Source: Terriglobia bacterium (lineage in GTDB: Bacteria; Acidobacteriota; Terriglobia; UBA7540). From it: DNA of 36,519 bases. A program made the position numbers and the translations under genes. The DNA lies in NCBI GenBank assembly GCA_020073545.1, contig JAIQEZ010000038.1:1-36519 (forward strand). The letters are read 5' to 3'. The stretch's first letter is position 1; each line of letters begins with the position of its first letter. Positions 30,985 to 32,810 of this stretch are shown here, in pieces. The notes beneath the pieces are model-generated. The model had not been told where the DNA came from, did no database searches, and saw only the letters and a program-made list of their open reading frames with translations.

Positions 30985-31389
30985 ATGACCGAGCAGAAAC
31001 CCATCCTGGTCACGGCCGGCATCATACGGAGTGGCGACCGCATCCTGATCTGCCAGCGCCACCGCTCAGACGCCTACGGGCTCCAGTGGGAGTTCCCGGG
31101 TGGCAAAGTGAGACACGCAGAGGAACTGCCCGCCTCGCTCGCCCGCGAACTGGAAGAAGAACTGGCCATTCAGGCGGAGATCGGCCCGGAAGTTTTTCGC
31201 CTGCGCCATCGTTATCCGGACCGTTACGTGGAAGTTGTGTTTTTCGGGATTGCCCGCTACCGCGGCGAGGTGCGCAACCAGGTTTTCGAAGCCATTGAAT
31301 GGGCGCATCGATCGAGACTCGCTGAGTACAACTTCCTGGAAGCTGACCGTGAACTGGTAAACCGCATTTCCAAGGGGGAGATTGTCTAG
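30985..31389 (+). CDS. mutT: MutT-type Nudix hydrolase (8-oxo-dGTP diphosphatase)
   Basis: 134 residues. The Nudix box runs from Gly40 to about residue 62 (GGKVRHAEE, then RELEEEL), matching Gx5Ex7REUxEE except that the late glycine is alanine. It is preceded by LQWEFPGGK, typical of MutT, and by VTAGIIRSGDRILICQR. The enzyme hydrolyses oxidised dGTP to keep it out of DNA; metal-binding glutamates Glu55, Glu58 and Glu59 are present. Length and motif favour MutT over other Nudix types. A TGn-extended -10 box lies 11 nt before the ATG. Monocistronic; downstream is a palindrome carrying a MITE-like insertion. Confidence 0.92.
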   Translation: MTEQKPILVTAGIIRSGDRILICQRHRSDAYGLQWEFPGGKVRHAEELPASLARELEEELAIQAEIGPEVFRLRHRYPDRYVEVVFFGIARYRGEVRNQVFEAIEWAHRSRLAEYNFLEADRELVNRISKGEIV

Positions 31390-31419
31390 TGTCGTGAGTC
31401 CGAAGTTCGTTGATCAACT

Positions 31420-31599
31420 CAGCCCGCATAGCGGGCGAAAGAAGGTAGCCCACGGCGTGAGAGTCTGTGTGAAAACCTCAGATTTCACGCCTTCGCGAAC
31501 AGAGATTCAATGACTTGCATTGTGGAAAAGGACGAAAAACCGAGTTTTCACACAGACTCTGACGCCCTGGGCTACGATCTTGCGCCCCTAACGGGGCTG
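31420..31599. repeat. REP-like palindrome split by an insertion
   Basis: The left half 31420-31460 and right half 31563-31599 are reverse complements over about 40 bp: CAGCCC...GGGCG, AAGA, then GTAGCCCA(C/G)GGCG. Joined through one TGA they would form a single 78-bp palindrome of the REP type. The halves are now separated by the element at 31461-31559. Confidence 0.75.
31461..31559. mobile_element. MITE-like insertion with TGA target duplication
   Basis: A 99-bp element is bounded by perfect 16-bp inverted repeats starting GAGTCTGTGTGAAAAC. TGA occurs directly on both sides (31458-31460 and 31560-31562), as expected of a 3-bp target duplication. There is no coding capacity. GAG ends and a TNA target are known for some IS5-family groups, so a non-autonomous relative is likely. 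Size is nearly the same as the element at 26600-26697. Confidence 0.78.
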
Positions 31600-31682
31600 C
31601 GGGACCGACCCCCGAAGCGAGACTCTGTCAGCTAGCTTCTGACTCAGGACACCAGAAATCTCAGCTCGCGAAGTTGGTGTGA

Positions 31683-32810
31683 ATGAATCGAGTTTTCCAT
31701 CCCCGGTCCGACGCCGCGCGGCCCGCACGGCGCGTGAGGAGAACCTGGTGCACGGGTCTCTTCGTCACGGCTGCCGTGTTTTTGCACGCCGCAATTCTGT
31801 GCGCTCAAGTCGAGACGGTGGAGAATCCCCGCTCGGCCCCCATCTGGGTCAGCCGCCTCGGCCGTGTCGAGGGACATCTAGCTTTGAACTATTCCTCGAA
31901 CGGGGCCTTCTCGCCTGACAGTTCCCTGCTCGCCGTTGCGAGTGAAGACAAAGTGGTTCTGATGAACCTGCGCACGGGCGACCTCCAAAGGGTCTTGAAG
32001 CCGCACCTGCCGGAGATCGAAGACCTGGACATCCGCTCCGCCGATTTTCTCGCCTCCAATCAGCTTTTTCTCCTGGCCAACGGAGTGTTTCACATCAAGG
32101 GCAAGGGGCAGGCAGCTCCCACTCCTCTGCTGGCGTTCCAATGGGACACCCTAGAGGACCGCCAGAGCGGGAAGCTGAACGTGGTCGGCGCCAAAGGCGG
32201 ATTCAGTCCGGCGCGATACTTCCCGCAGATCGGCTATCTGGCGCTTTACAAGGACAGCAGCTTCGACCTTTGGAATCCGCGCACGGGCGGCGGTGGGCGC
32301 CTCACCGTCTCCGGCCTGACCCAGATTGCCAACCTGTACGAGTTTTCTCCGGACGGCCATTGGCTGCTGCTGGCGCAGATTCAAACCAGCTCGACCGCTG
32401 ATCCCACGGTGGTGGAATTGAAGGACCACAAGTTTGTGGACTCCCTGCGCGGGCACCAGGGGACTGTCTTGAGCATGGCCTTCTCCCGCGACAACAAAAA
32501 AGTCGTGACCGCGTGCGAAGACGGCAAATTGCGCGTCTACTCGGTTGGCGACTGGAAGCTGCTCGAAACCCTCACAGGACATCAGGGGCCGGTACACCGG
32601 GCGGAGTTCTCTCCCAACGGGGAGTGGATCGCCTCGGCTGGGGAGGACCAAACCGTGCGCGTGTGGTCGGCGGAAGATGGGTCATTGCTGCAGACCTTAC
32701 AGGAAAGCCGGGAACCACTGCTCAGCGTGGCCTTTTCCCCGGATAGCAGGTACATCGCAGCATCCTCAGAAAAAGTCGTGCTCGCCTGGGAGCGGCAGGG
32801 CGGGAATTAG
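31683..32810 (+). CDS. Exported WD40 repeat protein
   Basis: 375 residues. A basic start and hydrophobic segment (LFVTAAVFLHAAILCAQ) form a signal peptide, with cleavage near AQV. The mature protein is a beta-propeller: clear WD40 units in the C-terminal half (GHQGTVLSMAFSRDNKKVVTACEDGKLRVYSV, split here as GHQGTVLSMAF and ACEDGKLRVYSV; GHQGPVHRAEFSPNG with DQTVRVWS) and degenerate blades before them (AFSPDSSLLAVASEDKVVLM). It probably binds partners in the periplasm; no enzymatic motif is present. The ribosome binding site is weak. The gene ends with TAG, and a heptad array begins with the next base. Confidence 0.85.
   Translation: MNRVFHPRSDAARPARRVRRTWCTGLFVTAAVFLHAAILCAQVETVENPRSAPIWVSRLGRVEGHLALNYSSNGAFSPDSSLLAVASEDKVVLMNLRTGDLQRVLKPHLPEIEDLDIRSADFLASNQLFLLANGVFHIKGKGQAAPTPLLAFQWDTLEDRQSGKLNVVGAKGGFSPARYFPQIGYLALYKDSSFDLWNPRTGGGGRLTVSGLTQIANLYEFSPDGHWLLLAQIQTSSTADPTVVELKDHKFVDSLRGHQGTVLSMAFSRDNKKVVTACEDGKLRVYSVGDWKLLETLTGHQGPVHRAEFSPNGEWIASAGEDQTVRVWSAEDGSLLQTLQESREPLLSVAFSPDSRYIAASSEKVVLAWERQGGN

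Follow-up and report, generated by a model that had tools for sequence, protein, structure and literature searches.

Read from its sequence, the palindromic locus studied here is a nest of mobile elements: a 99-bp gene-less transposon remnant (MITE) has been inserted at the tip of a hairpin, and the hairpin itself sits inside another small transposon. The window, that is, the whole 36,519-nt stretch of DNA that was analysed, is contig 26 (C26) of a draft genome of 5.28 Mb in 261 contigs; C-numbers denote contigs of this genome, G-numbers other genomes and L-numbers loci. We consider it quite likely that the locus records three mobile layers, in which an IS630-type MITE would have been followed by the 99-bp MITE, entering the hairpin loop and duplicating it, and then by divergence of the loop copies. 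The unit lies between a MutT-like gene (30985-31389), whose NCBIfam matches stay under the family cut-offs, and a second gene (31683-32810), whose product is propeller-like and has weak NCBIfam matches only. The features are listed in Table 1.

Table 1. Predicted features of the nested locus, in positions of the window
Feature	Positions	Strand	Remark
Outer palindromic MITE, IS630 type	31387..31654	.	268 bp, or about 165 bp when the insert is left out; TIRs like TAGTGTCCTGAGTCAGAAGTT at both ends
Outer TIR, left	31387..31407	+	First three bases, TAG (31387-31389), double as the stop codon of the MutT-like gene
Outer TIR, right	31634..31654	-	
REP-like core, left arm	31420..31460	+	Comprises a small hairpin followed by one half of the central hairpin
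REP-like core, right arm	31560..31599	+	
MITE, most likely IS1182 type, 99 bp	31461..31559	+	Nine genome matches; two 132-bp relatives with the same ends
MITE 16-bp TIR, left	31461..31476	+	
MITE 16-bp TIR, right	31544..31559	-	
4-nt hairpin loop, left copy	31457..31460	+	GTGA
4-nt hairpin loop, presumed right copy, altered	31560..31563	+	TGAC

The 99-bp MITE carries no transposase gene and has several dispersed copies in its own genome. Its two 16-bp ends, GAGTCTGTGTGAAAAC and GTTTTCACACAGACTC, are identical when inverted, exactly as the original prediction had it. Allowing up to three mismatches, the 16-bp end occurs at only two places in the window, both exact, against 0.16 expected; two matches were also reached in 2 of 100 shuffles of the window. 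Chance as the origin of the MITE ends and of their placement in hairpins was rejected after shuffle tests. Together with the adjoining arms, the MITE forms an inverted repeat of 44 nt at 89% (31433-31476 with 31544-31587). Among the nine matches in the genome, seven are 95-100% identical over 99 bp, one is 80% identical (100 bp) and one 71%, and the 132-bp relatives with the same ends lie at C84 and C152. A strict search of the genome contigs for the exact two-ended pattern (87-117 bp) returned no stretches.

The MITE is a nested insertion because the genome holds both palindromes without it and copies of it elsewhere. Used as a query against the genome, the 180-bp stretch matched 53 times, with some places counted on both strands. 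Uninterrupted palindromes, with lengths cut at the BLAST match ends, are present at C210 and C62 (77 bp each), C138 (76 bp) and C250 (75 bp), and other places have a different interior between the arms. When folded as single-stranded DNA, the empty palindromes of C210 and C250 form a 4-nt tip loop, with z of -5.5 and -4.3. Removal of the insert and one TGA does restore 78 bp, as had been claimed; removal of the insert and four bases leaves 77 bp (180 - 99 - 4), the size of the C210 and C62 copies, which makes a 4-bp duplication a slightly better fit. The MITE or a relative occupies the central REP hairpin at C26, C87, C70 and C84, a hairpin of another family at C45, C113 and C152, and sites outside both families at C244, C72 and C50. 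Thus, the insert is neither a part of every palindrome nor restricted to it. Of the original prediction, which had read an insert with MITE-like features into a REP-type palindrome and proposed that the REP came first, both parts gain support from these observations, but the suggestion that the two are mobilised together is not supported: the C70 MITE has the opposite orientation, and only four of the ten own-genome copies compiled are in the REP hairpin.

The order of events is also reflected in divergence. The MITEs of C26 and C87 are identical at 97 of 99 positions, and the REP arms at 66 of 75 and 41 of 46. Given 2/99 differences in the MITE versus 9/75 and 5/46 in the arms, the MITE probably postdates the split between these palindromes, although conversion between the MITEs could also lower their difference count.

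The original prediction missed a further layer: the 'REP' forms the centre of a larger MITE of IS630 type. Ends like TAGTGTCCTGAGTCAGAAGTT occur at 29 places in the genome with up to three mismatches, and the reversed control pattern at none; the window ends each have two mismatches to the consensus. By the positions of the TIRs, uninterrupted outer elements measure 164 bp at C210 and 167 bp at C250. Two 1162-bp elements in related genomes (G015:C43 and G002:C746) have 21-bp ends matching the consensus at 21 and 20 bases each, and both hold a transposase frame; the G015 protein scores 268.7 bits with NF033545 (IS630), for which the cut-off is 100. Since such ends accompany an IS630 transposase in G015, the REP-like core is, judged by this homology, part of a MITE of IS630 type. 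Of the eight other genomes of the same genus, seven (all but G007) yielded the MutT locus, and in all seven the outer element is missing from the spacer between the MutT-like gene and the propeller gene, where its end finds no closer match than one with 8-10 mismatches of 21. In the unoccupied site of G002, the sequence runs on directly from GTCTA with a single TA, and the window element has TA at its left end and CA at its right. The MutT-like gene of G002 stops with TAA at this site. The spacer of G008 (L256), also without the outer element, contains a run of short GAAATTCGAAA-like repeats.

The source of the inner MITE can be sought in the IS1182 family. A 1392-bp element of the same genome (C54:2440-3831) encodes an IS1182 transposase (NF033551, 330 bits, cut-off 270), and its ends, GAGTCTGTGTGGCAAC and GAGTCTGTGTGATAAC, agree with the MITE end at 14 and 15 of 16 bases, so that the MITE is most likely of IS1182 type. 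The search for an IS with GAGTCTGTG ends, proposed at the outset, was therefore answered within the genome itself. Moreover, an IS1182 fragment at G002:C715 starts with AAGTCTGTGTGAAAACTCGG, which agrees with the right end of the MITE at 19 of 20 bases. In the own genome, 28 stretches match the IS1182 model; among the copies compared there, none is a whole IS1182 element that ends in exactly the 16 bp of the MITE. With at most one mismatch, the MITE end is present in 23 of the family's 39 genomes, a count that includes the own genome. One member of the family, G032 (a 2.8-Mb draft), has 136 such matches. Of its two-ended copies, 30 were analysed, 19 of them 120-122 bp long, and no IS1182 match over the cut-off was found in this assembly, which is 89% complete (two lower matches, 40.8 and 29.6 bits). 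These two negative results count against the course of events favoured below.

Separately, at 21 of 26 IS1182 ends in the own genome (L082-L084, L092-L099, L159, L160, L163-L170, L173), which fall into two end types, CCCTCTCCC or CCCTCGCCC lies no more than 25 bp away, i.e. one type of GC-rich hairpin appears to have been struck repeatedly. At C20 the right end of an outer MITE adjoins an IS, and at C43 a REP-like left arm does.

To characterise the targets, we assembled 82 loci, from which 53 copies with both ends and both flanks were obtained; 30 loci were dropped because they yielded no copy complete at both ends with sufficient flanking sequence. A smaller set of 62 loci, 21 of them dropped likewise, provides the figures given for 42 copies. 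The 53 copies come from G032 (30), the own genome (14) and seven other genomes or records (9); 47 are MITE-sized and six are full IS, including that of C115, admitted with seven end mismatches. As a control, left flanks were joined to right flanks of other copies in 5000 rounds of shuffled pairing. An exact 4-bp direct duplication flanks 27 of 53 copies (shuffled mean 2.5, maximum 9; 0/5000 reach 27), namely 25 of 47 MITEs and two of six full IS, and two of the 27 duplicated 4-mers are self-complementary. With one mismatch allowed, the count rises to 37. At least seven of the ten positions outside the 4 bp pair as a stem in 15 of 53 copies (shuffled mean 3.0, maximum 9; 0/5000 reach 15), and the earlier idea that the element prefers hairpin tips is supported by this enrichment. 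These 15 strong-stem copies comprise eight direct duplications, six mirror-type copies (defined below) and one that is neither. Five of the eight are exact: GTGA/GTGA at C87 (in REP orientation), GTCA/GTCA at C70, GCCGACC-TGAA/TGAA-GGTCGGC at L302, GCCGGGC-TTCA/TTCA-GCCCGGC at L309 and GCCGCCC-TAAA/TAAA-GGGCGGC around a full IS1182 element in G011:C117. The three with one mismatch are C84, L340 and L348. Taken together, the target sequences suggest a preference of such elements for hairpin tips, the four tip bases often being copied on insertion; with weak stems in 38 of 53 copies, hairpins are preferred rather than required.

Several controls locate the insertion point. When unequal offsets were applied to the two sides, only 1-3 of 53 copies reached 7/10 pairs, and the insertions therefore lie on the hairpin axis. 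Equal offsets of 0 to 8 on both sides gave 18, 16, 18, 17, 15, 14, 11, 8 and 7 strong stems. Since the counts for offsets 0-4 are similar, stem pairing fixes the axis and not the loop size, and it is the duplications and the uninterrupted hairpins that set the loop at 4 nt. In the smaller set, a stem run of at least four around a 4-nt loop was found in 12 of 42 copies versus 0.5% of 18514 other sites in the same loci. A second target type is represented by empty GCGGGGC-NNNN-GCCCCG hairpins, whose loops are mostly TTCA/TGAA or TTTA/TAAA. Searching for these with a 4-nt loop returned 21 exact matches, both strands counted, and further ones with a single mismatch; the patterns, with up to one mismatch, matched 42 and 34 times versus 19 and 16 for reversed controls, and a pattern ending in AAGCCCCG had no matches.

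Such targets are also palindromic as duplex DNA, and here sequence symmetry and hairpin shape are therefore inseparable. It is quite conceivable, though we lean the other way, that the transposase prefers a palindromic duplex sequence with GC-rich arms and a T..A core and does not act on an extruded hairpin. The 42 insertions indeed share a weak symmetric consensus (C at -5 in 29, T at -4 in 27, A at -1 in 31 and G at +5 in 29), and the many weak-stem copies point the same way. On the other hand, in the duplicated strong-stem copies both the loops (GTGA, GTCA, TAAA, TGAA, TTCA) and the stems vary, and the duplication is still centred on the axis. We infer that the transposase recognises the extruded hairpin rather than the palindromic duplex.

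The window copy departs from the exact pattern. Its two flanking 4-mers are unequal, differing at four of four positions in direct comparison and at one of four when one is inverted, so that they are one substitution away from a mirror pair. TGA, originally taken as a 3-bp duplication, does occur on both sides of the insert, but in view of the perfect 4-bp duplications at C87 and C70 it probably belongs to a 4-bp loop duplication that has been altered; a 3-bp duplication as the rule was rejected because other copies show 4 bp. The window insertion would thus have duplicated its own loop. Mirror-type copies, in which the left and right 4-mers are reverse complements with at most one mismatch and do not match better directly, make up nine of the 53, six of the 15 strong hairpins and three of the 38 weak ones (direct versus mirror, Fisher P=0.015, post hoc). 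Exact mirror pairs, taken alone, lie within shuffled pairing (6/53, two of the six also direct; shuffled mean 2.9; 287/5000 reach 6), and repair across the quasipalindrome is therefore an explanation that we only infer.

The unequal loops (TTTA/TAAA, TTCA/TGAA and GTGA/TGAC) could instead have arisen by recombination between MITE copies at different sites. Tobes and Pareja, in the accessible part of their text, propose such hybrids for ISRm22, and the unexceptional number of exact mirror pairs agrees with this origin. Even so, we find it somewhat unlikely: the flanks in the window belong to a single gene spacer, collinear in seven relatives, and to a single outer MITE, which disfavours recombination between distant copies, and mirror-type copies are relatively commoner in strong hairpins. 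Loop repair after insertion may have made the window copies unequal.

A different outcome of insertion would be the stem-loop replacement of IS1272, in which the element is inserted bluntly into the stem, the tip is lost and nothing is duplicated. IS1272 belongs to the same family and uses hairpin targets, the arms are complementary up to the element at C45 (TTTA/TAAA) and C152 (TTCA/TGAA), and none of the full IS1182-family copies with both flanks in the own genome has the 4-bp duplication (C54, C115 and C200 have two, three and two mismatches). Yet across the 53 copies only the hairpin target of the IS1272 type recurs (15 versus 3.0); instead of a lost stem-loop, 27 copies have an exact duplication, and at the REP and GGGGC hairpins the mirror-type copies keep 4+4 bases inside the stem where the empty ones have one 4-nt loop. 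Replacement is thus an improbable account of the set, although single copies, such as these full IS of the own genome, may have arisen by it. Finally, that the nested unit is a single compound element moved whole, as the shared nesting of C26 and C87 over 180 bp at 96% and in equal orientation might suggest, is very improbable and was rejected, given the palindromes without insert, the MITE copies in other hairpins and at weak-stem sites, the reversed MITE of C70 and the smaller divergence of the MITEs than of the arms.

The course of events that we favour, with loop duplication rather than replacement or wholesale transfer, would be as follows. First, an IS630-type MITE of about 165 bp with a REP-like hairpin core would have entered a TA at the end of the MutT-like gene. 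Later, the 99-bp MITE would have been placed, most likely by an IS1182-family transposase acting in trans, in the 4-nt loop that caps the central hairpin, and this loop would have been duplicated. The two loop copies would then have diverged, perhaps via templated repair between the hairpin arms. Such repair corresponds to quasipalindrome-associated template switching as outlined in the accessible literature and would yield mirror-type copies; the MITE ends extend the target stem and leave the doubled loop as a bubble, which makes mirror-type loops explicable in this way. A more general proposal, which we put forward tentatively and consider doubtful, is that a branch of IS1182 inserts in the single-stranded tip of extruded hairpins and duplicates the loop, as opposed to the stem deletion of IS1272; the insert ends would extend the stem, replication repair would mirror the bubble of the doubled loop, and each insertion would lengthen the palindrome for the next.

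The window case is thereby explained in kind, and loop duplication by an IS1182-type element is a variant of target use. According to the accessible parts of the reports on IS1272 and TnSha1 (PMC5678879, PMC4923244), these IS1182-family elements enter hairpins of unrelated sequence, as here, but delete the stem-loop without duplication, whereas in about half of our copies the 4 bp are kept and doubled; a model figure in PMC5678879 includes loop duplication as one pathway. MITEPye1 of Paracoccus yeei (PMC11578231) is likewise a MITE with IS1182-like ends and 4-bp direct repeats, but its accessible passages mention no hairpin target, and its main text contains 'palindrom' 0 times. A 4-bp target repeat is described for ISPse1, and MITEs related to ISMac2 are assigned to the IS1182 family, in the accessible sources. 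The 4-bp duplication of ISPse1 and MITEPye1 characterises our set (27/53 exact) but not the window copy. ISPsy8 and ISRm22 (PMC1525189, accessible text) also insert at the symmetry axis of REPs with short direct repeats, but they are full IS of the IS3 and IS4 families, not MITEs. We found no report of an IS1182-type element duplicating the loop of its hairpin target in the literature searched, with most subscription papers and ISfinder outside that search. Should hairpin tips prove to be the true target, small palindromes would act as gene-sparing landing sites, and the nesting of palindromic repeats in bacterial genomes would become easier to understand. The element may also offer a natural counterpart to IS1272, sharing family and hairpin targets with the opposite fate of the loop, so that the choice between duplication and stem deletion becomes testable.

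As for the core itself, repeated hairpins are a feature of the REP/REPIN systems with their Y1 transposases (PMC3116915 and PMC3733652, accessible parts), unlike which the core here lies within a MITE of IS630 type. The core may plausibly derive from a REP, since similar hairpins (one regular expression) lie within about 1.5 kb of two of the nine Y1_Tnp loci. The protein encoded at C110 scores 19 bits with the RAYT model (cut-off 80) and 58 with IS200/IS605 (cut-off 55). In the central-hairpin copies of the own genome (L009-L042), a single pattern recovered 19 4-nt loops, about 17 of which are GCAA, GCGA or GTGA when read on one of the strands. These loops fit GNRA, the pattern of stable RNA tetraloops. 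Long forms of the palindrome (L017, L019, L027, L029, L031 and L039) have an extra GC-rich palindrome (CCCTCACCCC...GGGGTGAGGG-like) between two hairpins in the place of the short form's single one, resembling a further insertion into the central hairpin.
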